Positions 128-49,856 of a stretch of 55,327 nt of DNA are shown piece after piece. Source of the DNA: a virus; IMG/VR virus record IMGVR_UViG_3300029922_000086, positions 1 through 55,327 of that record; one strand, written 5' to 3'. Positions within the stretch are counted from its first letter, which is position 1. Each line of letters begins with the position of its first letter. The notes beneath the pieces were generated by a model that saw nothing but the letters and a program-made list of their open reading frames with translations, did not search any database and was not told the DNA's origin. A program made the position numbers and the translations under genes.

Positions 128-2084
128 CTACTGTTCCAGATGCAAAACCGACATTTAATCCCCCTAGGACAGACAGCTTAGAACCTGGAGCGGCATCACC
201 AATTCCTACATTACCCGCTGAAGTCAGGGTGATACCAGTACCAAATGATATTGCACTTCCTGAAGTCACAGAAGCATAGTCTATCTCAAAAAGATTAGAT
301 GTTTTTGCAAACCTAAAGTTACCATTAGAAGAGTTGCTGATAATACTTGTACCGTTGTAGTAGCAATCCCAAAACATTTCTATATTGTCACGGGTAAAAA
401 CTTGAGCTATTAAATAGGCATTGGAACCACTTCCACCAACACTCCAGCCAGTGCAATTTATATTACCGGCAAAATCTGAAATTGATCCTGTGTCAGGAGA
501 AGCTAAACCCACCCCTAATTTTCCAGGCATGATCAATCCACCGTTAGGGGGTGTCGTGCTTTGGTAAGACCCTATACTTATACCATTTGGTAATGTTAAA
601 GTTACATTACCAGTTGTTGAGCTGGCAGATATTTGGTTAGCTGTTTGAATTATCGAGGTTACTGTTCCGGCAATACCGCTTGCTTGCCAAGTTGGAAGCG
701 CGGATGCGCCGTTACTGGTTAATACCCATCCGGCATTTGACATTCCAGTCGTAGCTTGTTGAAAATTTCCGGTGCTCGTAGTTCCTGCGCAAATTGGAGC
801 ATAGGTGGTAAAAGTAGCCAATCCAGTTCCACCGCTCCCTGCTACCAGTGTTCCAGTTAAAGAGACCACACTTCCGGATCCGGCTGTTGTTAATCCTGTC
901 GATCCTCCCGTGATACTCAATACATTTGTGGCGGGTATGGCATTTCCCGAGTTTGTCGTGAAACTTGTTGGAACGGAAGCCGCTATTGAAAGAGTTGTTG
1001 AACCTCCTAGGCTAACAGTTCCTCCTCCGCTTAATCCTGTGCCCGCTGTGATAGTGAAACTTGGAATTGTCCAAGTCATCGCATTCGTTGAACCGCCTTG
1101 GGAAGTTAACAAATATCCCACTGTACCCGCTGTGATTGGCAAGTTAAAATTATAAGTTCCCGCCGCTGCTTGACCAAGAATAGAAACGGCTCCAGAAGAG
1201 CTACCCGCGATTAATAATCCTGTGAAAGTTGGAGATGATCCTGTGCCAATAGGCTGTGGTGTTGTGAATACCAAAACCCCGTTTTGTGGTGTCCCGGACG
1301 TACCATTTATTAAAACTTCATTCGCGGTACCTTGAGCAGAAACCACCCCAAAACTAGAAAGAGCAGACCATTGAGCATTCCCAAAATTATCTGCCGAAGT
1401 CATCACATAGCCAGTCGTCGCGCCTGTGGCAAATTGAAATGTGCTCGTTGCTTTTATTCCTAAGAAAACAACATTCGACCCAGTAGTAATCTCTTGAACT
1501 GTATCAATTGAACTGCCTGAAAAAACTAAACTTGCGCCGAGGGTAATTCCCTGAGCATTTGCAAGTGAACCTGTTGGATTTCCTAAAAGTGATGATGCAA
1601 CAACTTGTTGAAACTTGGCATAGGTAACCGCATGTGCGGCAATTGCAGTTGTCCCTTGTGGTCCTGTGACATCGCCTGCCAAGTTGCCGGTAAAACCCGA
1701 AGAGGTTCCAGTGGTATTTTGATTTAAAGTCGGAAAATCTGCCGCAATTGCGATGCTGGGCGCACCTGTGCCAGTGGTATTTTTTAAAATCCCCGTCCCT
1801 AGAGCCGCCAGAGAAATTCCGTTAATTCTAACAACCGTCGCGGCTGCAACTCCTCCGACCGCTGCCGCTGTTGTAACGTCTCCAGATAGTGAAGAGATCC
1901 CGCCTCCAGCCGCTGAGCTGAATGTATTCCAATCTGCTGATGAAAGCCAACCACTTGTAGTTCCGCTTGCTTGTGTCATTGCAATATTATTTGCAGTTAT
2001 CGCCAAGGGTAAACTTGCCGTTAAGCTACCGCCGGACCCTCCCGAAAATGGAGGATAAACCCCACTATAAACTCCAATAGTCAT
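1..2084 (-). CDS. Long tail fibre, N-terminal part (crosses the circle junction)
   Basis: Starts at ATG 2084, with an AGAGG about 10 bases upstream and an ATGA overlap with the preceding gene. It reads without a stop to base 1 and continues in the same frame from base 55200 to 53856, giving one protein of about 1142 aa. The sequence is rich in Gly, Thr, Ser and Ala, with recurring low-complexity beta patterns such as TAGTGLSGGG and a NVGIGDAAPGSKLSVLG segment typical of phage fibre shafts. It probably forms a trimeric receptor-binding fibre. An annotation that treats the window as linear would break this gene in two. Confidence 0.85.
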   Translation of the reverse strand, partial: MTIGVYSGVYPPFSGGSGGSLTASLPLAITANNIAMTQASGTTSGWLSSADWNTFSSAAGGGISSLSGDVTTAAAVGGVAAATVVRINGISLAALGTGILKNTTGTGAPSIAIAADFPTLNQNTTGTSSGFTGNLAGDVTGPQGTTAIAAHAVTYAKFQQVVASSLLGNPTGSLANAQGITLGASLVFSGSSIDTVQEITTGSNVVFLGIKATSTFQFATGATTGYVMTSADNFGNAQWSALSSFGVVSAQGTANEVLINGTSGTPQNGVLVFTTPQPIGTGSSPTFTGLLIAGSSSGAVSILGQAAAGTYNFNLPITAGTVGYLLTSQGGSTNAMTWTIPSFTITAGTGLSGGGTVSLGGSTTLSIAASVPTSFTTNSGNAIPATNVLSITGGSTGLTTAGSGSVVSLTGTLVAGSGGTGLATFTTYAPICAGTTSTGNFQQATTGMSNAGWVLTSNGASALPTWQASGIAGTVTSIIQTANQISASSTTGNVTLTLPNGISIGSYQSTTPPNGGLIMPGKLGVGLASPDTGSISDFAGNINCTGWSVGGSGSNAYLIAQVFTRDNIEMFWDCYYNGTSIISNSSNGNFRFAKTSNLFEIDYASVTSGSAISFGTGITLTSAGNVGIGDAAPGSKLSVLGGLNVGFASGTVAPTNGAAISGVLLVNETSRVGVNSQFQVNGTAWNSSFTDGTN

Positions 2085-3358
2085 GTGTTTGATACCTCTT
2101 CTAAAAAGATTTTAACGATTTCTGTCGAGGTAGAACTAACGATTTGAATTTGAAAACTTTGATTTGTAAGTCCAAGCGGCGCATCGAAATAGCAGTAATT
2201 TGTATTATTCCCAAAAACTCCCGTGTTGGTTACTTTTCCAGAAACAATAGTCCAGGTATCAAGAGGAATTCCATTCTCATCAAGCAGATTTACTGTTGCG
2301 CCGGCTGTTGAAGCAGAAGGAAACATTGCAAGAATTTTCAATCGTCCTTGGTAAAATCTGTAAATATTTTGAGAAGTTTGTGTGCCTGTTCCCCATGTGT
2401 AAACTTTTTCATATTGTTTAACGATTGTTGCGGAAAGGCCTGCTCCCACAATGAAACTCACGCCATCGCTTGTCACATCAAAGCAAGAAAGGCCGGAAAA
2501 ACTTTGATTCCCTAAAGCACTTGCGCGGGAAAAAGAAGTCATGGTATTTGAGCTTGCGCTGAAATTACCCACTCCATTTCCTAAGGAAAGTGCCACAACA
2601 CTTGATTGAGAATTCGTAAGATTTGAAATCGTATTTGCACCTGAAACATTCAAGTTTTGAAGTGAAGTGACAGTTTGTACGCCCGTGTTAATCGTGCTAA
2701 TTAGTTCTGTGTAAATATTTTTATGTTCAGATCCGACTATATAACCATTATTTACAACAACTTCTCTAAAGAGAAATGCGGCTGCAATCGCGTTACTAGC
2801 AATTGTGAAAACTGGACCTGTGAAATTATAAATTCCGTATCCATTTGTTTTAAATCCTAAAAAAACTCTTGTCGCGTCAATGGCTGCAAGACTTAAGACG
2901 TTATTATTTTGAAAAATTCCGCTTTGAGTAAGAACAGCGGAAGCACCAATAGAAAATTTATAGACCATTCCAAGGGTAGCAACATAGAGCGTGGTACCAG
3001 TGAGATCCATTGCAACAATATTGGAATCAAGAGCATATGTATTGGTTACTGTGGAACTTCCTGTGGAGTATAATCCAATGGTATTTCCTGTTGCGTAGTA
3101 AAAATAATAAACAGACGAAGCGCTGTACTTGAGTACTTTTGTAGGAGCGACCGTCAAAGGAACACTTACAAAAGAAAAGTTTGTCGTTTGAGAATTCGCA
3201 AGGTCGGTTGCAAAAACCATTCCTTTATTCGTAGCAAGAGCACAATAGAAAGTTGGCGTGACGCCACTGCTTCCCACGGCTATTTCCTGGATTGCCACGG
3301 CATTCACGCCGCCAAAATAAGGCAGTCCCAAGAAATTATTTAACACATAATTAATCAT
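2081..3358 (-). CDS. Tail fibre or tail-associated beta-propeller-like protein
   Basis: 425 aa, beta-rich, with repeating Gly/Ser/Thr blades such as YYFYYATGNTIGLYSTG and LYVATLGMVYKFSIG. The spacing suggests a propeller-like fold, but this is inferred from the pattern only. It lies between the baseplate/fibre genes and the long tail fibre and overlaps the latter by ATGA, so it is probably a distal tail or adhesion component. The C-terminus (TSTEIVKIFLEEVSNT) may be a small beta domain. I do not recognise a specific family. The facing plus-strand gene has its promoter region right at this start codon. Confidence 0.7.
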   Translation of the reverse strand: MINYVLNNFLGLPYFGGVNAVAIQEIAVGSSGVTPTFYCALATNKGMVFATDLANSQTTNFSFVSVPLTVAPTKVLKYSASSVYYFYYATGNTIGLYSTGSSTVTNTYALDSNIVAMDLTGTTLYVATLGMVYKFSIGASAVLTQSGIFQNNNVLSLAAIDATRVFLGFKTNGYGIYNFTGPVFTIASNAIAAAFLFREVVVNNGYIVGSEHKNIYTELISTINTGVQTVTSLQNLNVSGANTISNLTNSQSSVVALSLGNGVGNFSASSNTMTSFSRASALGNQSFSGLSCFDVTSDGVSFIVGAGLSATIVKQYEKVYTWGTGTQTSQNIYRFYQGRLKILAMFPSASTAGATVNLLDENGIPLDTWTIVSGKVTNTGVFGNNTNYCYFDAPLGLTNQSFQIQIVSSTSTEIVKIFLEEVSNT

Positions 3359-25683: not shown

Positions 25684-27426
25684 ATGTCCATCATAGATAT
25701 TCCAAGAGATATCATTAAAAGAGAAGAACTTTTCAAGAATTATTCTTCAGATCGTCTCTTAGAATTAAAAGGAAAAATAGACCAAAGAATTATCACCCCG
25801 CACGAGAGAAATGAATTCACGCAACTTCTTTCTTTTGAGCAGATAAGAACCTATGGGAACTACGTCAAGTCGATGGATTATCCAATTCCTTGGCAGTGGT
25901 TTCACCATGTTGTCATGGAAAAAATCGACAATGTAATTGCCTCGCCAATTTCCAGACGCGTCATGATTGAAATGCCGCCCCGCCATTGCAAAACGTTGCT
26001 TGCAGGCCAACTTCTTTCAACATACCTTTTCGGTAGATTCCCTAATAAGTCTATAGTGTACGCGACAAATGTGAACTCGAAAGCAGTGGACGAGCTAAGT
26101 GCCATGCGAAAAATCATCACGTCCGACCGCTATCAGTCACTTTTTCCAGGCGCAAAGGCCAAGACTTCCTTTGAAGATATTTCGGTTATCGACAAAAGTT
26201 TGAGAAAAAACAAAAAAGATACGGCAAACGTGCTTTCAAATGTTTACTCGGACCGAGGAGGTTTACGCACGGTTGGAATGGGCGACATCCTTACTGGTCA
26301 CCCGTTCCACGTGGGAATTGCGGACGACTTGTACAAAGGCTACGCAGAAGCACAGTCCGAAAAAGTACGTGAAAATATTTGGAACTGGTTTATGAAAGTG
26401 TTTTGTACGCGCGTGGATAAAATGACAATTGGTGGAGTTTCCCACATTATCGTTTTCTTCACGCGCTGGCATGATGACGATATTTGCGGACGGCTTCAGA
26501 GAATTCAAAAGGAAAGATCCTATGAGATTGAACAGTTTGAAAAACTAGGAATTCCTTGGTACGACTGGGAAATCCTCTCCTTTGAGGCCGTAAAAACGGA
26601 AGATAAGCCTTCGCACCCTGCGGACCCTCGCAAAGTCGGTCAACCACTCTGGCCACTTTATGAAGCAGAATATCATCAACAAAAAATCCTAGACCCCGTT
26701 GGCTTCGAATCTCTTTATCAGCAAAATCCTATGAACAAATACGGTCAGTTATTTCAAAGAGATTATTTCCAACACTATTCAACTTTGCCCGAAAATATCA
26801 CACATATCGTAGTTTCAATTGACCCCAATTTGAAAGAAGGCAAAAGCAATACCACTGGAGTTTCAGATAATTTCGCAATTCTCGTCATGGGACTTGGACG
26901 CGGTGGGAATATTTACCTTCTTGATTTTGTCGCGCATTCAAAGGATTACAACTTTCTAAAACTTGAAACGCGCCGCATTCTTAGAAAATATCCACACCAC
27001 TGGCAAGTCGTCATCGAACAAACTGCCGTTGGGCCTGCACTCACGTCTGACTTGAAAATCTCGGGATTCTACCGAGTGACTGAGTTCAATCCTGGATCAA
27101 AGTCCAAATTCGAGCGCGCAAGTCTTATCGTGCCGGAACTCATTTCCGGAAAATACTTCATCCCCTCTCGTCATATGCGCCCAGATATTGACAACTACGT
27201 GAATCAATTGGTTAACTTCACTGGACAAAAAGGGCGCAAAGATGACTTGGTTGATGCAACAGTTATAGGAATTCTATACTATATGAACCACCGCACACTC
27301 GCGGACATCAGCTACGTGACCACCATGAGCAATCCACTTCTTGCCCGCACACTGGGACAACCGCAATCTTTTGGCCTGGGAAGACAATTGCCGCCCGGAA
27401 AAAATAGAAGGACCATGGAACAATGA
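25684..27426 (+). CDS. Terminase large subunit
   Basis: 580 aa, the typical TerL length. ATPase motifs: P-loop-like PPRHCKTLLAG (residue about 97), Walker B region around HVGIADDLYKG (about 209). Nuclease acidic residues: VSIDPNLK (about 376), VVIEQTAV (about 443) and the GRKDDLVDAT region (about 517). It drives packaging ATP hydrolysis and cuts the concatemer. Ends 4 bases into the next start, an ATGA overlap, so its expression is coupled to the helicase gene. Confidence 0.9.
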   Translation: MSIIDIPRDIIKREELFKNYSSDRLLELKGKIDQRIITPHERNEFTQLLSFEQIRTYGNYVKSMDYPIPWQWFHHVVMEKIDNVIASPISRRVMIEMPPRHCKTLLAGQLLSTYLFGRFPNKSIVYATNVNSKAVDELSAMRKIITSDRYQSLFPGAKAKTSFEDISVIDKSLRKNKKDTANVLSNVYSDRGGLRTVGMGDILTGHPFHVGIADDLYKGYAEAQSEKVRENIWNWFMKVFCTRVDKMTIGGVSHIIVFFTRWHDDDICGRLQRIQKERSYEIEQFEKLGIPWYDWEILSFEAVKTEDKPSHPADPRKVGQPLWPLYEAEYHQQKILDPVGFESLYQQNPMNKYGQLFQRDYFQHYSTLPENITHIVVSIDPNLKEGKSNTTGVSDNFAILVMGLGRGGNIYLLDFVAHSKDYNFLKLETRRILRKYPHHWQVVIEQTAVGPALTSDLKISGFYRVTEFNPGSKSKFERASLIVPELISGKYFIPSRHMRPDIDNYVNQLVNFTGQKGRKDDLVDATVIGILYYMNHRTLADISYVTTMSNPLLARTLGQPQSFGLGRQLPPGKNRRTMEQ

Positions 27427-29060
27427 ACAGCTTAAAAGCCAAAATTAAACAATATCTAGCTTATGAAGGTGTCAAAATTACTCCAGATTTGTACGTCGAA
27501 CCTGCCATAATTAACAATTTAAAAATTAGATTTGACTCCCTTTTCAGTGATTTTGACAAATATTCCTTGGAAGATTATACCTTTGCACTTTGGGAACTCA
27601 TCGCAGAAAGCGATAATTCAGAAGATAAATTGGAAACTATTCTTAAAGAAAAAGAAAATGGTTTATTAAAAGCTAAAAATGAAGCACTTGAACTCTTAGA
27701 ACATCGCGCATTTCGTCTTGAAAAAACCTCAAACAAATTGCTTGTGAAAATCGTCGCAAAGGGCAGATTGCTTCCTGGATATTTTTCCTTGAACTTTTAT
27801 GAAGAAGCCCTTTCGAAGTTTCAACATAAGGGTAAAAATTGGTGGGATATTTTTAAAGATGACATCATGCACGCGGTCCCAGTTTACAACCCGCGTGATG
27901 AAAGATTGTGGTGGTTTTCTGAAAATAATCATTGCTTTTTAAACACATATGTGCGCCCGGACCATTCAAAAATGTTTCCCATGACCTATGAAGAAGCTGA
28001 TCCACTCCTTAGAAATTTCCTAGAACACCTTTTCGTTTCTAAAGAAAATGTGATGCAGATTTTGAAGTGGTGCGCGTATTCTTCTTGTCAAAATCTTCAA
28101 ACTTATCTGACCCTCATCGGACATCCGGGCATCGGAAAGACCATCTTTGTGCACGACTTTTTAGCTTTTTACCATGGAGCTGAGAATTTCAATCTTGCCG
28201 CGCGCATTGAAAATTTGCACCAAGGCGTGTCCCATCAATCCACACTCATCTATCTTGATGAAATGGTAATGAATAAAACGGAGCATTATAACATATTAAA
28301 GCGATTTACCAATGATTTAATAGCTATCGATAGAGGTGGTAAATGGGAGTCTGAAGCAACTTCGCGGAACTTTGCAAACTTGGTTTGGTCCTCGAACACT
28401 CGCGAGAACATGGGAGCGCTGACAACTGAGGACCGACGCTTCAAAATTGTTAAAATTACAGATACGCCGCTCAATACTATTTTTTCTGCCGAGGAGATTC
28501 AAAACCTTCGTGAAAATCCTCTATTTAAAAATCAGTTTGTCGGTATTCTTCTTTGGATATTATCTAAAAATGAGGACACTTCTGACGTTAATCAAGTGGA
28601 AGATACCTACGAGAAATTAGAAGTCCTTCTTGCTTCCCGCAGCCTAGAAGTCAAAGAGCTATTCAAGTTGTTCTTCAATATCGTCAATGACTTTGATATG
28701 GAAAATAAAAAGCCCATTCGTCATGAAGAATTTTCTGATGAGATAAAGGAAACCATTGGCTTACCTTTTATAGATTACATGCCACTAACTGCTTTTATTC
28801 TTCCCCGCGCGGGTGGCCCGTATACCCTTCGCATTCCTATGAAAATTCTGCGGTTAATTCTTGATAAAAAGAAGACGCATGAGAAATTTTCACTCACGTA
28901 CAACCGTCTGAGATTTCACCTCATGCAGATTTCGCCCAAGTTCTGCAAAATAAAGCATGTAAATGGTACGCCCAATTATGATTTGGAAATCTATATGCCC
29001 GATGTGAAACAAGAATATGTGGATATCATACGGCTACATGGCCATCGATTTAGCTTGTGA
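27423..29060 (+). CDS. SF3-like/DUF5906-type helicase
   Basis: 545 aa. Walker A GHPGIGKT (residue about 232), a Walker B-like STLIYLDEM (about 277), and RRFKIVKITD further on match the D5/NrS-1-like helicase group (DUF5906). N-terminal ~200 residues could be a primase-like or adaptor region, but no primase motif is seen. Probably unwinds the replicating genome and, unusually, sits behind the terminase genes. Its 3' end is followed by a perfect 16-bp hairpin. Confidence 0.75.
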   Translation: MNSLKAKIKQYLAYEGVKITPDLYVEPAIINNLKIRFDSLFSDFDKYSLEDYTFALWELIAESDNSEDKLETILKEKENGLLKAKNEALELLEHRAFRLEKTSNKLLVKIVAKGRLLPGYFSLNFYEEALSKFQHKGKNWWDIFKDDIMHAVPVYNPRDERLWWFSENNHCFLNTYVRPDHSKMFPMTYEEADPLLRNFLEHLFVSKENVMQILKWCAYSSCQNLQTYLTLIGHPGIGKTIFVHDFLAFYHGAENFNLAARIENLHQGVSHQSTLIYLDEMVMNKTEHYNILKRFTNDLIAIDRGGKWESEATSRNFANLVWSSNTRENMGALTTEDRRFKIVKITDTPLNTIFSAEEIQNLRENPLFKNQFVGILLWILSKNEDTSDVNQVEDTYEKLEVLLASRSLEVKELFKLFFNIVNDFDMENKKPIRHEEFSDEIKETIGLPFIDYMPLTAFILPRAGGPYTLRIPMKILRLILDKKKTHEKFSLTYNRLRFHLMQISPKFCKIKHVNGTPNYDLEIYMPDVKQEYVDIIRLHGHRFSL

Positions 29061-43088: not shown

Positions 43089-43280
43089 ATGATACGTTTT
43101 GAAGACATTTTAAAAATGATAAAAACTTGCTCTATGAAGAAAAGTTTCAAGTTTCGGTCAAAAAATCAGGATGGCTATTACATTTACAAAAATGGAAAAG
43201 TCTTCGATTATTTTGACAAACCTGTGCAAAAAATAAGCTTTTACAACATTATTTTTGAGGAATGGGAGGTCGTTGAATGA
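43089..43280 (+). CDS. Short degenerate Tad2-like protein
   Basis: 63 aa. RFEDILKMIKT at the start and FEEWEVVE at the end echo the F-e-al--l--G and DDWE-- ends of the Tad2-like (DUF2829) fold, but without the conserved arginine-tryptophan middle. Next to the better match at 43277, which it overlaps by ATGA. Likely a paralogue, degraded or specialised. Confidence 0.5.
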   Translation: MIRFEDILKMIKTCSMKKSFKFRSKNQDGYYIYKNGKVFDYFDKPVQKISFYNIIFEEWEVVE

Positions 43281-43675
43281 AATTCGAAGAAATTTTGCCT
43301 CAATTGCGAGAAGGACGGCGATTTAAAAGAAGCTGTTGGGATGATGATATTTACATAACATATACTGAAAATATTTTATGCAGCAACAAAGAAGGAATTT
43401 TACTTCAATATAGTTTATTAGATGAAGAGATTTTTTGTGACGACTGGCAACTCCATCGATTTGAAAATTCGACTACTCTCAGAAAATTTGAATTAAATGA
43501 GATATTTCTCGGCGAAGAACCTGAAAATAGAATTAGATTTGGAGATTCAATTGATCCTATTGAAATTGCATTTGGTCATACATTAAGTTTATTTTGCCTT
43601 AGTCGCAAAGATGTTTCGCAATATCAAAAAATTTCAAAATGGAAATTAATCCTGGAGGAACTTCCAAATGAATGA
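43277..43675 (+). CDS. Tad2-like (anti-Thoeris) N-domain fused to a C-module
   Basis: 132 aa. Residues 1-65: MKFEEILPQLREGRRFKRSC then W--D-YI... ending FCDDWQLHRF, the pattern of DUF2829/Thoeris anti-defence 2-like proteins. Residues 66-132: RKFELNEIFLGEEPE ... KISKWKLILEEL, a second module whose relative occurs C-terminally in the gene at 49079. So two modules are fused here but separate in the right-hand cluster. Role in countering Thoeris signalling is inferred from family, not shown. Confidence 0.6.
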   Translation: MKFEEILPQLREGRRFKRSCWDDDIYITYTENILCSNKEGILLQYSLLDEEIFCDDWQLHRFENSTTLRKFELNEIFLGEEPENRIRFGDSIDPIEIAFGHTLSLFCLSRKDVSQYQKISKWKLILEELPNE

Positions 43676-43763
43676 CGACGGAGACCTAGACTGGGACGAA
43701 GCCATTGCCAATGGCGGTTTTATTTTCTTAAGCGGAGAACAAGAAGAGAATGACGATAATTGA
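43668..43763 (+). CDS. Very acidic 31-aa peptide
   Basis: MNDDGDLDWDEAIANGGFIF then LSGEQEENDDN. Eleven acidic and no basic residues. It overlaps both neighbours (start 8 bases into the previous gene's end, end 14 bases into the next). The SD CTGGAGG lies 10 bases upstream. May be a real DNA-mimic-like peptide, but it is short. Confidence 0.4.
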   Translation: MNDDGDLDWDEAIANGGFIFLSGEQEENDDN

Positions 43764-44124
43764 TGAGCTCCTTGCTCAAAAGAGTGCGCAAGAGGCTGCC
43801 CTTGGAGACGAAACACGGCTTGAGCCACGAAGTCGTTATTGCTACGAAACGACGATTCTAGGGCATTTGGCGCGTTATGCTCTAAACAAGCCAAAGAACA
43901 TTGGCAAAGAAGCCTTTGAAAAACTAACCAAAACATATTTGATGATTCTTCTTGAGCAAGAAATTGTGGAATTGGAAGAAGAATTGTTTTTCTGGACAGA
44001 AGACGGCTATCGAAATTCAAAAATGTATGACCCTGAAAAAGCTTTGGAAGAACTTGCAGACTGTGCTGCAACGTTAACGGGAATTCTTGTAAAAATAATG
44101 AAGGAAATAAAAGAAGATGACTAA
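43750..44124 (+). CDS. MazG-like nucleotide pyrophosphohydrolase
   Basis: 124 aa, helical. LLEQEIVELEEELFFWTEDG and ALEELADCAATLTGILVKIM give the E-ExxE ... ExxD arrangement of the all-alpha NTP pyrophosphatases. Such enzymes hydrolyse (d)NTPs or (p)ppGpp-like alarmones in phages and can blunt stress or defence. Start at ATG 43750. Confidence 0.65.
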   Translation: MTIIDELLAQKSAQEAALGDETRLEPRSRYCYETTILGHLARYALNKPKNIGKEAFEKLTKTYLMILLEQEIVELEEELFFWTEDGYRNSKMYDPEKALEELADCAATLTGILVKIMKEIKEDD

Positions 44125-44398
44125 GGAACTTACCATATTAGAAGTCGCAGAATATTTAAAAAACGAAGATCATTTTCGCACTATACAAAAAGGGATAGGT
44201 CCCACAAATCAAATTGTATGGCGCGATTTTGATGAATTCGAACCTCACTCTTTCTGGATTATTCAGGACTTCCGTTGGAGATTTAAACCGATTAAAGAAG
44301 AAATAGATGATTTAAAGGAGCGTATTTCCATTCACGAGGACCTGCTGAGAAAAAATAAAAATAAGTTAAAATTATTAAATGGAGTTAAAGATGAGTAA
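44117..44398 (+). CDS. Small protein, paralogue of the gene at 45654
   Basis: 93 aa: ELTILEVAEYLKNEDHFRTI ... RFKPIKEEIDDLKERISIHE, ending in a Lys-rich coiled coil. The FRWRFKPIKEEI segment, followed by a coiled coil, matches IRFKPLAKQI and coil in the gene at 45654, suggesting duplication in the operon. Overlaps the previous gene by 8 bases. Confidence 0.6.
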   Translation: MTKELTILEVAEYLKNEDHFRTIQKGIGPTNQIVWRDFDEFEPHSFWIIQDFRWRFKPIKEEIDDLKERISIHEDLLRKNKNKLKLLNGVKDE

Positions 44399-45460: not shown

Positions 45461-45657
45461 TTGATACAGAAGAAGATGACAAATGGTTAAAAATATATCT
45501 TGAAATGGATAAATTAGGCAGCGAATTAATTCAATCAAATATTGAACATTATTATTTTCTTACTGCTGAAGAAAAAAGAAAACGCTGGGAGGATTATTTG
45601 AAATCTCAGAATGATTCTATAAATAAGCTTATTGATAGTTGGAAGGAAGATAAATGA
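45457..45657 (+). CDS. Small acidic protein
   Basis: 66 aa: MIDTEEDDKWLKIYLEMDKL, with Lys/Glu-rich rest and WEDYLKSQNDSINKLIDSW. ATGA overlaps on both sides. No recognised domain. Confidence 0.55.
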   Translation: MIDTEEDDKWLKIYLEMDKLGSELIQSNIEHYYFLTAEEKRKRWEDYLKSQNDSINKLIDSWKEDK

Positions 45658-45932
45658 TTAAAAAATATTTAACTATTCAAGAAGCAGTAAAATTAACCAA
45701 CGACCCCACTAATATTCGTGACATCGAGATTGAAAATAAGCTTGCACACGGTGGTACGATACCATTTTATATTAGTGATACAATTCGTTTTCACGAAATA
45801 GATGACGTAAAAATAAGATTTAAACCACTAGCTAAACAAATAGCAGAGACTGAAGAAGTGATATCCAACTACGTATTTCAAGTTGAAATGCTACAGAAGA
45901 AAATTGCAAGGTTGAAGGAGATTAAAGAATGA
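45654..45932 (+). CDS. Small protein, paralogue of the gene at 44117
   Basis: 92 aa: LTIQEAVKLTNDPTNIRDIE then DDVKIRFKPLAKQIAETEEV and a coiled-coil C-terminus (VEMLQKKIARLKEIKE). The T-I-x-E-A start and RFKP mark it as a relative of the 44117 gene. Its stop overlaps the next start. Confidence 0.55.
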   Translation: MIKKYLTIQEAVKLTNDPTNIRDIEIENKLAHGGTIPFYISDTIRFHEIDDVKIRFKPLAKQIAETEEVISNYVFQVEMLQKKIARLKEIKE

Positions 45933-46219
45933 AATTTAAATTAGATAAATCTGGCGCCGTTATTATGAATGGAAAAGAATGTGTTCCATATGAACATGTG
46001 GGCAGTTTATTTTGGAATGAAAAACTATACCAAATAGGAGATTTATTAGAGCAAACTTGTCGTGTACGTCGTGAAGGTTGGTTGGTTGAAAAAGGAGGCT
46101 TAATTACTATTTTAGGATTTATAGGGCTTTCATTAAAGGTTGAACTATCTTTCCCAGAAATAACATTCATTTTAGACTCGTCAGATTTGAAATATTTTAT
46201 TCATCATGGGGAAGAATAA
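45929..46219 (+). CDS. Small protein, unknown
   Basis: 96 aa: MKFKLDKSGAVIMNGKECVP, YEHVGSLFWNEKLYQIGDLL, RVRREGWLVEKGGLITILGF. Beta-containing, no family recognised. Its end shares a base with the next start. Confidence 0.55.
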   Translation: MKFKLDKSGAVIMNGKECVPYEHVGSLFWNEKLYQIGDLLEQTCRVRREGWLVEKGGLITILGFIGLSLKVELSFPEITFILDSSDLKYFIHHGEE

Positions 46220-47283
46220 TGAAACTTAAAGTTGGTGATAGTGTTAGATCCATACTTCCTCCGCATAGGGGGTACCTAACTGTTGGAAAAATATATAAAA
46301 TTATTAAAATAAAAAACTATGAATATCAAGAATTCTTCATAATTGATGATAAAGGCAACGAAGACGGTTGGGGTTTTCCAAATTCTTATTTTGAACTTAT
46401 AGAGCCATTCAAAGATGAAGAAGGCGATGTACATGAGGATAAACCTACAAGAGGGTATCAATGTGGTAATACTAAAGATGCTAAAGCCCAAATATATGAT
46501 GGTAAAAAATGGGTAGAACCTTGTAAACATAAGCAGATTCCAGCTTTATGTAAGGAGTGTATCGAGGAGGATTTGGAGGATTTAAGAGAAAAAGGACTTT
46601 GTGAACATCAAAATATCAATGGGGAATGTGACGAGTGTGAGAAATCCTCTTCTTTGTTTTCAGCAGGTTGGCCTAAATGTAAAAAATGTAATCAATACTT
46701 CAATATCCCTTCTCATGAAGAAAATGTTTGTAGGGTTTGTTCAAAAGAGTTTCCACTTGAAGAATCTCTAAAATCGGCAGGTATGAGCTTACATATTGGA
46801 ACACCTAAAATAAAACAATGTGGGTGTGCTTACTACCCTGAGTGCGACTTAATTTTTAAATGCTCTGAATGCACAGATAAACCTCTCAAAGCAGAAGATT
46901 TAAAAGTTGGTATGGTGTTTGAGGATAAAGAAATTTATTACAAGTTATTGTTTTATTATTTAGATTATTTTTTTGTTGCTCGGAACCACAAATTTTATGA
47001 ACCTCAACTAAAAGCCGATTCAATACATAAAGATTATTTTATAAAACATTGCAGACTCATCGACAAAGTACCACCTAAAATTGTTGAGGTTGAAGAGGAA
47101 GTAGAAGTATTTTGCCCTGTTTATGATTTATCCGAATATTCTGTAAAACCTTATATACAAGCTTTCAAAAGAACTCCTAATGGTATTCCTGCCGATAAAG
47201 AAAAAGAATTTGAGCTCTGCAAAATAAAAAGAAAATTTGAGAAAGAGCTTAATTGGGATTGGGAGATGGGACAATGGAAATGA
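46219..47283 (+). CDS. Multi-zinc-finger protein with SH3-like N-terminus and C-module
   Basis: 354 aa. N-terminal KLKVGDSVRSILPPHRGYL then TVGKIYKIIKI is SH3/KOW-like. Middle has several Cys clusters: CKHKQIPALCKEC, CEHQNINGECDEC, CKKCNQYF, CRVC, CGCAYYPECD ... CSEC. C-terminal module (LKVGMVF ... IDKVPPKIVEVEEEV ... ELNWDWEMGQW) recurs in the next gene. It could bind nucleic acid or scaffold other proteins; no enzyme signature seen. Confidence 0.65.
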   Translation: MKLKVGDSVRSILPPHRGYLTVGKIYKIIKIKNYEYQEFFIIDDKGNEDGWGFPNSYFELIEPFKDEEGDVHEDKPTRGYQCGNTKDAKAQIYDGKKWVEPCKHKQIPALCKECIEEDLEDLREKGLCEHQNINGECDECEKSSSLFSAGWPKCKKCNQYFNIPSHEENVCRVCSKEFPLEESLKSAGMSLHIGTPKIKQCGCAYYPECDLIFKCSECTDKPLKAEDLKVGMVFEDKEIYYKLLFYYLDYFFVARNHKFYEPQLKADSIHKDYFIKHCRLIDKVPPKIVEVEEEVEVFCPVYDLSEYSVKPYIQAFKRTPNGIPADKEKEFELCKIKRKFEKELNWDWEMGQWK

Positions 47284-47705
47284 AACCAGAAGATTTAAAA
47301 GTGGGAATGGTGTTTGCATGGCGCCTGAACAATGAACAAATTAGTTTTTTTAAAAAGTTTATTTGCTTCTATAAAGATAAAGTTTTCTTAGAAAATATTA
47401 AATTTATGCATGAATGTGATAAAATTATAGTATCCGAACCAGAATTAGAAAGCCCACAGTGGTTTTTTCACAACTTTAAACTCATTGATAAAGTACCTCC
47501 TAAAATTGTTGAGGTTGAAGAAGAAGTTCCTTTATTTGTTTCTTCGGATTATTTAAAACTTTTACAAGAAGGTACTTATAGTTCTATACAAGCCTATATT
47601 ATATCTGGAAATGTTTTGGATGAAAACCCAGTCCAACTCTGCAAAATAAAACGCACAGTCAAAAAAGAACTCAATTGGTGCTGGGAGAGCGGGCAATGGA
47701 TTTAA
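47274..47705 (+). CDS. Paralogue of the upstream C-terminal module
   Basis: 143 aa from ATG 47274, overlapping the previous stop. Starts MEMKPEDLKVGMVFAWRLNN; IDKVPPKIVEVEEEVPLF and KKELNWCWESGQW mirror the preceding protein's C-terminal part. Tandem duplication with independent expression. No function recognised. Confidence 0.6.
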   Translation: MEMKPEDLKVGMVFAWRLNNEQISFFKKFICFYKDKVFLENIKFMHECDKIIVSEPELESPQWFFHNFKLIDKVPPKIVEVEEEVPLFVSSDYLKLLQEGTYSSIQAYIISGNVLDENPVQLCKIKRTVKKELNWCWESGQWI

Positions 47706-47935: not shown

Positions 47936-48196
47936 ATGGAAATGACAATCTTTGTATTAATTCAATCAGACCATAAAGGCCAACAAGATATTTCATTTCA
48001 TGAGAAATATGAAGATGCTTTACATAGTGCAGAAGTTTTCCCATGGGGTAATAGTTATCGCATTGAAAAACATCAGTTAGGAAGCCACACTTTAATAGAA
48101 ACAATAAATATGGACGGTCATAAATCAGGACCATCACGTCCTGCAAAAGTCGGTAGGCCTCATACGTACGGGCTTTGGATAGATGAGGAGAAATAA
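47936..48196 (+). CDS. Small protein, unknown
   Basis: 86 aa: MEMTIFVLIQSDHKGQQDIS, then FHEKYEDALHSAEVFPWGNS, ending THGL-type with YGLWIDEEK. Overlaps the RNA ligase start by 1 base. No family seen. Confidence 0.55.
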   Translation: MEMTIFVLIQSDHKGQQDISFHEKYEDALHSAEVFPWGNSYRIEKHQLGSHTLIETINMDGHKSGPSRPAKVGRPHTYGLWIDEEK

Positions 48197-49089
48197 TGAA
48201 AATAAATAGCTATACCAGTTTGTACAATATTGGCCATAGGCAATTAGAGAAGCTCTTTGAGGGTGAAGTTCTCATAGAAGAGAAAATAGACGGTTCTCAG
48301 CTATCTTTTGGACTCATAGAGGGGCAACTTCAAGTTCGTTCTAAAGGTGGTCCTTTGAATATTGAACAGCCTGAGAAAATGTTTGCCAAAGCTATCGAAG
48401 TGATTAAGGCGCTCCCGCTTCAAGAAGGATTAATTTACAGAGGTGAATATCTCAAAAGCCCGCGACACAATTCTTTGTGCTACGACCGAGTGCCAAAAAA
48501 TCACATCATGATTTTCGATATTTCCAACGAAGAGGGAAAATATCTGAACAATATGCAGAAGAAAAGAGAAGCTGAACGCTTGGGTCTCGAGTGCGTCCGT
48601 GTCTTTAGCAAAGGAGTTTTCAATTTCTCAGCTCAAGAATTACAAGAATTCTTAGAAAAAGAATCTATCTTGGGGGGGCAGAAAATTGAAGGAATTGTAA
48701 TCAAAAATTACAATCAATTTAACGACGAAAAGAAGATTTTAGTTGGAAAACTTGTTTCAGACAGCTTTCGAGAAGTTCACAAAAAGAATTTTAAAGAAGA
48801 GAATAAGTCTAATACTGACATAATTCAATTAATTGCTGAACAATATAAAACTCCTGCGCGCTGGCAAAAAGGGATTATTCATCTGCAAGAGAAAGGTATA
48901 TTGACCAATACTCCTAAAGATATTGGCTTATTGTTTAAGGAAATTAATGAGGATATTTTGAAGGAATGCAAAGAAGAAATACTGCAACAATTTTTTGAAT
49001 GGGCATGGCCTAAAATGTTTAAAATTATTATGAAAGGATTTCCTGAGTGGTATAAAGAAAAATTGGAGGGTTTGAAAAATGATAATTGA
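48196..49089 (+). CDS. ATP-dependent RNA ligase
   Basis: 297 aa, SD GAGGAG upstream. Nucleotidyltransferase motif I: EVLIEEKIDGSQLSF with Lys about residue 30 (KxDG); motif III around LIYRGEYLK; motif IV KIEGIVIKNY; motif V KILVGKLVS. Size fits Rnl-type ligases. It seals RNA, for instance cleaved host tRNA. No polynucleotide kinase gene was recognised in the window, so its partner may be host-encoded or absent. Confidence 0.8.
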   Translation: MKINSYTSLYNIGHRQLEKLFEGEVLIEEKIDGSQLSFGLIEGQLQVRSKGGPLNIEQPEKMFAKAIEVIKALPLQEGLIYRGEYLKSPRHNSLCYDRVPKNHIMIFDISNEEGKYLNNMQKKREAERLGLECVRVFSKGVFNFSAQELQEFLEKESILGGQKIEGIVIKNYNQFNDEKKILVGKLVSDSFREVHKKNFKEENKSNTDIIQLIAEQYKTPARWQKGIIHLQEKGILTNTPKDIGLLFKEINEDILKECKEEILQQFFEWAWPKMFKIIMKGFPEWYKEKLEGLKNDN

Positions 49090-49501
49090 TAAATTTGGAA
49101 TATATAAAGCAAGAAATGGTGAACATTATGAAGTAGTTTACTTATCAAAGAAGGATAAAAAATATTCTATCATTGCTGTAAATCTAGAAAGTAACTATGA
49201 ATATGCATTTACTAAAAATGGGAATTATGGTCCCAATCATGACCATCCTTTGGATTTAATCGAATACATTGGCCCAGAATTACCAAAAGACCCACGTAAA
49301 TTTGAATTTGAAGCTTATTTGGGAGAGCACGAAGATGAACATGCTCAGATATATTATTCCTTAGAAAATCAAGTAGGGCATTTAACTTCCCCTTTATACA
49401 CTGAAGATGGGATTAAAAAAATGAAATCGATGTCTATAGGTGACTGGCCAAAATATTCAAAATGGAGGGTCGTTATGGAGGAAATTTTAGATGAAGTTTG
49501 A
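49079..49501 (+). CDS. Two-part protein sharing a C-module with the 43277 gene
   Basis: 140 aa: N-terminal beta module (MIIDKFGIYKARNGEHYEVV); C-terminal DPRKFEFEAYLGEHEDEHAQ ... YSKWRVVMEEI matches the second half of the 43277 gene. Start overlaps the ligase gene, and its end overlaps the next gene by 11 bases. The domain swap between clusters is unusual. Confidence 0.6.
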   Translation: MIIDKFGIYKARNGEHYEVVYLSKKDKKYSIIAVNLESNYEYAFTKNGNYGPNHDHPLDLIEYIGPELPKDPRKFEFEAYLGEHEDEHAQIYYSLENQVGHLTSPLYTEDGIKKMKSMSIGDWPKYSKWRVVMEEILDEV

Positions 49502-49856
49502 AGACGCTTTACCCCTTCTCAGGGAATGTAAAAGGATTCGTAGAAGATTTTGGGATAAAGAAACTTATATAGAAATTGTTGAAGAGAAAATTGCTGTTCA
49601 CGTGCCTCATCATCGTTTTAATCCTGGTGAATGGGTGGGCGAAAGGGCCGACCTTCTTTCAGACGATTGGGAAGTATTTGAAGAAGTAAAGAAGAAAGTT
49701 AAAAAGTATTTAGTACTTTATATTGGTACTTCCTACGGCGGAACATGTTTTGCAACTAATTTATATTATAAGTCAAAAGAAGATTTCAAAAAGATACACC
49801 CAGATCTTATTTTTATACAACTAATTGAAGACTCGGAAAAGGAATTTGAGGAATGA
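49491..49856 (+). CDS. Tad2-like (anti-Thoeris) protein
   Basis: 121 aa. MKFEDALPLLRECKRIRRRF, W--ETYI and a LLSDDWEVFE close to residue 60 are the pattern of DUF2829/Tad2-like proteins. Then a C-terminal unit: KKYLVLYIGTSYGGTCFATN. Second of the three related genes. The family is known to sequester signalling nucleotides of Thoeris; this protein's activity is not shown. Confidence 0.65.
   Translation: MKFEDALPLLRECKRIRRRFWDKETYIEIVEEKIAVHVPHHRFNPGEWVGERADLLSDDWEVFEEVKKKVKKYLVLYIGTSYGGTCFATNLYYKSKEDFKKIHPDLIFIQLIEDSEKEFEE

Follow-up and report, generated by a model that had tools for sequence, protein, structure and literature searches.

Compact, divergent Tad2-like domains with different C-terminal modules in a tailed phage genome

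Introduction

The best described member of the Tad2 family is SPO1 Tad2 (gp34.65; structures 8sme, 8smf, 8smg and 8wje), a gcADPR sponge of 89 aa that has the motifs GWNGK and WVPSQTDVLAEDW and, between strands 2 and 3, about 24 inserted residues. Its gcADPR pocket is formed by the beta1-beta2 loop, the beta3-beta4 loop, beta4, the beta4-alpha3 loop and alpha3, while helix alpha2 of the Tad2 sponge provides a dimer interface and carries the cyclic dinucleotide site of some members (PMC12043709). Further solved members are ModTad2 (9eib, 8v3e; hisADPR), HgmTad2/AcrIIA7 (8kbi-8kbk) and SptTad2 (8wjd; cGG). SPO1 Tad2, ModTad2 and HgmTad2, for which complexes have been solved, all retain GWNGK and W-x-[PA]-S-[QV]-x-D-x-L-A-x-D-W. 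There are also compact DUF2829/Tad2-like proteins of 60-66 aa, for example A0A2K9VAK2 of Klebsiella phage KpS110 and A0A1L2CVD1 of Pectobacterium phage CBB in the viral model library BFVD.

The DNA analysed here (the window, 55,327 nucleotides) is the whole of IMG/VR virus record IMGVR_UViG_3300029922_000086, a tailed phage genome that encodes TerL, portal, major head protein and a baseplate J-like protein. Megablast of the 36.7-52 kb part of the window found no close relative among 50,697 phage records, and a search for the host by means of TerL found no relative of this protein in genome contigs. We describe three genes of the window, A, B and C, that are divergent members of the compact form, about 60 aa long, of the Tad2-like (DUF2829, PF11195) fold, and compare them with the canonical sponges.

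Results and Discussion

Three compact genes and their family membership

All three genes are on the plus strand. Gene A (43089-43280, 63 aa) is a stand-alone compact protein, while gene B (43277-43675, 132 aa) consists of a compact N-terminal domain (residues 1-61, 43277-43459) and a C-terminal module. An earlier note on this DNA had reported these two adjacent genes as Tad2-like, and both reading frames exist as given; the ATG of B overlaps the stop codon of A (ATGA) and lies 7 nt downstream of a good Shine-Dalgarno match, GGGAGG (43264-43269). Gene C (49491-49856, 121 aa), situated outside the coordinates of that note, combines a compact N-terminal domain (residues 1-64, 49491-49682) with a C-module unlike that of B, and it is the strongest Tad2 match in the record (PF11195, 38 bits, E 1.3e-10). 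The profile search with PF11195 that the note had proposed gave a divided picture beyond C: B lies at the curated Pfam cut-off of 25 bits (25.0 bits, E 2.9e-5; 25.6 bits in a scan of the whole record), and A gave no match in the Pfam search.

Compact relatives were gathered from other phages and prophages by degenerate DNA patterns, and twelve compact sequences, none of them from the window, make up profile A6. In the record A6 matched exactly three proteins, namely C (E 1.4e-15), B (E 4.6e-15) and A (E 5.5e-5). Searched against PDB sequences, the same profile placed all seven Tad2 sequences on top (E 5.7e-7 to 0.012), followed by noise, and it recovered SPO1 Tad2 from its genome (E 2.1e-7). 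A canonical profile of 68 canonical Tad2 domains, again free of window sequences, was searched against all six-frame ORFs and found C (E 2.7e-7) and B (E 9.4e-5) but not A; its sequences had been retrieved with the pattern W-x-P-[ST]-Q-x-D-x-[LF]-A-x-D-W and their trimming relied on R..W, which makes these columns conserved by construction. Single sequences were less informative: BLAST-type searches with B and C revealed no close sequence relative in the 50,697 phage records, single proteins gave chance matches only against PDB sequences, and SPO1 Tad2 as a query found no relatives.

The predicted fold of B points in the same direction. B was modelled (AF2) from nine compact rows (alignment A4) that included no canonical Tad2 rows, and its N-terminal domain reached a pLDDT of 90-96. 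In a Foldseek comparison of this domain with 350,542 PDB chains, ranks 1-23 were all Tad2 proteins (SPO1 Tad2, ModTad2, AcrIIA7/HgmTad2 and SptTad2) with probabilities of 0.99-1.00, and the next rows shown had probabilities of at most 0.33. Alignment with 8wje_C (VIA) gave Z 9.0 and an rmsd of 2.5 Å over 61 residues, the first non-Tad2 entry following at Z 5.4, and many of the top BFVD matches are named DUF2829 or Tad2-like, some of them being just 60-66 aa long, i.e. of the length and fold of the B and C domains. The domain of C (pLDDT 88-97 for residues 1-40, 68 for 41-50 and 94 for 51-60) has 8smf_G at Foldseek rank 1 (probability 1.00) and aligns with 8wje_A (VIA) with Z 9.7 and 1.9 Å over 62 residues; as C was folded from compact and canonical Tad2 rows together, its fold match is less independent than that of B. 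The elements of the compact fold follow the order helix, strand, strand, strand, short helix, strand. On the strength of profiles and predicted structures, the membership of B and C in the Tad2 fold family is well supported.

The assignment of A is less direct, since A is linked to the family through profiles only and the fold evidence covers B and C. In a simple pairwise alignment A is not significantly similar to B, as 147 of 2000 shuffles reached the same score. However, with two closely related compact profiles, akin to A6 and again without window sequences, A exceeded all 1000 of its own shuffles (18.7 vs 7.6 bits and 24.7 vs 9.3 bits), and we regard its membership in the Tad2 fold family as likely. 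The motif that the earlier note had drawn for both genes, F-e-a/iL--l--G followed by DDWE, is present in part in B (FEEILPQLREG ... DDWQ rather than DDWE) and only weakly in A (FEDILKMIKTC, without the G, and EEWE). The description of one copy as degenerate fits A, the most divergent of the three, in which R..W after strand 1 is missing and EEWE replaces DDWE.

It might thus be asked whether A, B and C are decaying remnants of an ancestral canonical Tad2, with A pseudogene-like and B captured by fusion. Decay would fit the loss, in A, of R and W behind strand 1 and of the DD of the common core, and also the greater length of canonical Tad2 proteins. Against this, the compact form constitutes a separate lineage: in independent phages and prophages it has the same length and the core M-K-F-E, G, R..W and DDWE, of which MKFE and DDWE were fixed by the search pattern, while G and R..W were left free. 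Moreover, the frames of B and C are intact, with good ribosome sites and N-terminal domains that fold with high confidence. We consider decay improbable; A, B and C appear to be genuine small phage proteins that are translated.

The canonical pocket

The core fold of SPO1 Tad2 is the same as in B (Z 9.0 over 61 residues) and C (Z 9.7 over 62), and the common core F..aL..l..G....R..W with D-W near the end is found in all of them. The difference lies in what surrounds this core, as the B and C domains are 61-64 aa long, lack the insert and the motifs, and have C-modules added. ModTad2, HgmTad2/AcrIIA7 and SptTad2 have the fold of B and C as well, but they too are longer proteins with the insert, unlike the domains of the window.

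We defined the pocket from the structural elements given in the review (PMC12043709) and mapped it at the level of sequence; in SPO1 Tad2 the elements correspond to GWNGK, the region around ADNK, HAW, PSQ and TDVLA. At the positions of the two motifs B has CWDDD and YSLLDEEIFCDDW, whereas C has FWDKE and a partial second motif, WVGERADLLSDDW, in which W48 and D54-L-L of WxPSQxDLLA are retained and PSQ and A are gone. A has neither G-W-N-G-K nor W-x-[PA]-S-[QV]-x-D. In all three proteins the stretch that links strands 2 and 3 falls short of its SPO1 Tad2 counterpart by about 24 residues, and the models of B and C have no helix alpha2 in this shortened region. Because the pocket-forming segments are shortened or changed in A, B and C, the canonical gcADPR pocket is judged, by this sequence mapping, to be absent from them. 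Since the alpha2 insert and the pocket-lining loops are missing or replaced, sequestration of gcADPR in the manner of SPO1 Tad2 is most improbable for the three proteins, although another pocket may be present in the compact domains, most likely in C.

These results bear differently on the various proposals of the earlier note. The Tad2-like nature of the genes is upheld by the PF11195 score and the fold of B and by the A6 match of A, but sequestration of Thoeris signal molecules finds no backing, the gcADPR pocket segments being shortened or changed and alpha2 missing from the compact models. The structure prediction and pocket comparison suggested there thus gave a Tad2 fold for B and C and no canonical pocket residues; as the note had regarded the lack of an HMM or fold match, or of pocket residues, as evidence against its idea, the outcome is split, with the match present and the canonical residues absent.

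One could argue that B, C and perhaps A are nevertheless true signal sponges with remade pockets, each binding a different immune nucleotide and together covering a wider Thoeris/CBASS range. This would agree with the Tad2 fold of B and C and with the partly retained motif of C, which could allow small-molecule binding through other residues. It would also agree with the fact that the ligands of solved Tad2s differ (gcADPR, hisADPR, cGG), i.e. that the family changes ligands, and both points count against our preferred reading given below. The number of copies can be cited as well: there are three here, whereas among 32 virus records A6 had two matches in five (one pair within one ORF) and three in none. 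On the other hand, Lactobacillus phages Semele and Iacchus have three BFVD matches each, so multiple copies are not unheard of. What speaks against remade sponges is that A and B lack both G-W-N-G-K and W-x-[PA]-S-[QV]-x-D, of which little is left in C, that the insert and helix alpha2 are gone from the compact domains, and that no Thoeris host is known for the phage. We think this explanation unlikely, though it deserves to be taken seriously. The earlier note had suggested that two or three copies reflect adaptation to several signals; three copies there are, with C as the third that it had missed, but the several signals are not supported.

C-terminal modules and their exchange

The second gene had been described in the earlier note as fused to a C-module, and this is clearly so. 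Residues 68-132 of B (43478-43672) match residues 73-139 of gene D in a local alignment (score 66, 0 of 2000 shuffles). Gene D (49079-49501, plus strand, 140 aa) carries this module in its C-terminal half (49289-49498) and adjoins gene C upstream, overlapping its start. The N-terminal half of D has only a sub-threshold PF20294 match (E 0.0048), and no relatives were found with D as a query. AF2 confidence for the C-module of B is low (about 52 or less per block of ten residues), which makes this part of the model unreliable. The C-module of C (residues 66-121, 49686-49853) is predicted to be beta-rich, with a pLDDT of mostly 58-76; matches to YkzG (Z 3.6) and phage p56 (Z 3.2) are within the noise range and were rejected.

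Other compact loci (L155, L156 and L158-L162) resemble A, B and C in length and core motif but have different C-modules. At L155 (13054-13392, minus strand) the compact Tad2-like domain is fused to a Lar zinc ribbon (PF14354, E 2.1e-10), a partner for which the C-modules of B and C show no match. L159 and L161 combine the compact domain with a KVKLRDLT module; in L159, a prophage-like stretch, two compact genes (1489-1866 and 2523-2930, minus strand) lie about 650 bases apart and both have the same KVKLRDLT...DLYSDxFLDQE module. In L102, finally, one protein (804-1229, minus strand) joins a compact Tad2-like domain to a canonical Tad2 domain on its C-terminal side. The annotated neighbours of the compact genes have mostly ordinary phage functions (SSB, MazG, DUF1064, DUF551, methylase, lysozyme) and give no particular pointer to defence.

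The Lar fusion brings up a further alternative, namely that compact domains inhibit another defence by protein contact, like AcrIIA7 or like the Lar partner. AcrIIA7, a Tad2-family protein named as a type II CRISPR-Cas inhibitor in its PDB entry, is among the Tad2 matches to the fold of B (8kbi, 8kbk), and Lar relieves restriction. Yet the host is not known to possess Cas9 or a restriction system, and zinc ribbons of the Lar type are frequent modules in phages and may have been joined to the compact domain by chance. This mode of action seems to us very unlikely for A, B and C.

Our preferred reading, to which we give a probability of about one half, is that A, B and C represent a compact fold scaffold that is not an SPO1-style sponge, carries exchangeable C-modules and serves takeover or counter-defence. 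The modules are taken to be exchangeable because B shares its module with D and relatives carry others (Lar, KVKLRDLT); the tandem domains of L102 and the mosaic gene row around A, B and C agree with this. From the domain order alone we infer that the compact domain would be an N-terminal scaffold to which phages attach interchangeable C-terminal modules; A would then be the scaffold only, without a C-module, and B and C would act in host takeover or counter-defence, with the C-module setting the target. A broader speculation is that the compact domain is a widespread takeover scaffold without the known pocket, that the nucleotide sponges arose from it or were reduced to it, and that most PF11195 proteins lacking GWNGK and WxPSQ are therefore mislabelled as Thoeris inhibitors; we put this forward tentatively and with some doubt. 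The current database name of these proteins is 'Thoeris anti-defense 2-like', and the presence or absence of the known pocket offers a clean, testable split in the family. Should the compact form turn out not to bind signals, numerous automatic annotations as anti-defence proteins would be incorrect; should it bind them, a scaffold of 60 residues would offer a second mode of binding.

The gene row and other observations

The earlier note had also placed these genes in an early operon. We could only infer the time of expression, and this placement could not be substantiated: in a promoter scan, promoter-like sites were not commoner than in shuffles, and an endolysin is encoded on the same strand and in the same gene row as A and B. 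The row is mosaic in character and contains further paralogue pairs (46219/47253, 44117/45654 and 42333/50735), and A, B and C can be regarded as a usual case of phage mosaicism in a known family, of which they are distant members.

Several other genes of the window may be mentioned. The neighbours 46219-47283 and 47253-47705 share a strong paralogous C-terminal region (LIDKVPPKIVEVEEEV ... ELNWxWExGQW, score 222). The small proteins encoded at 44117-44398 and 45654-45932 are paralogous too (score 58, 0 of 300 shuffles), with LTI.E ... RFKP and a probable coiled-coil tail. The product of 43750-44124 has two acidic helix motifs (EQEIVELEEEL ... EELADC) and resembles an all-alpha NTP pyrophosphatase (MazG-like), with no match in Pfam. 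Directly upstream of genes D and C lies the gene of an RNA ligase (48196-49089; PF09414, E 1.4e-15; phrog_548), which might mend RNA that a defence nuclease has cut. Adjoining TerL there is a protein of 545 aa (27423-29060) with a weak, sub-threshold match to the nSTAND3 NTPase (E 0.0018).
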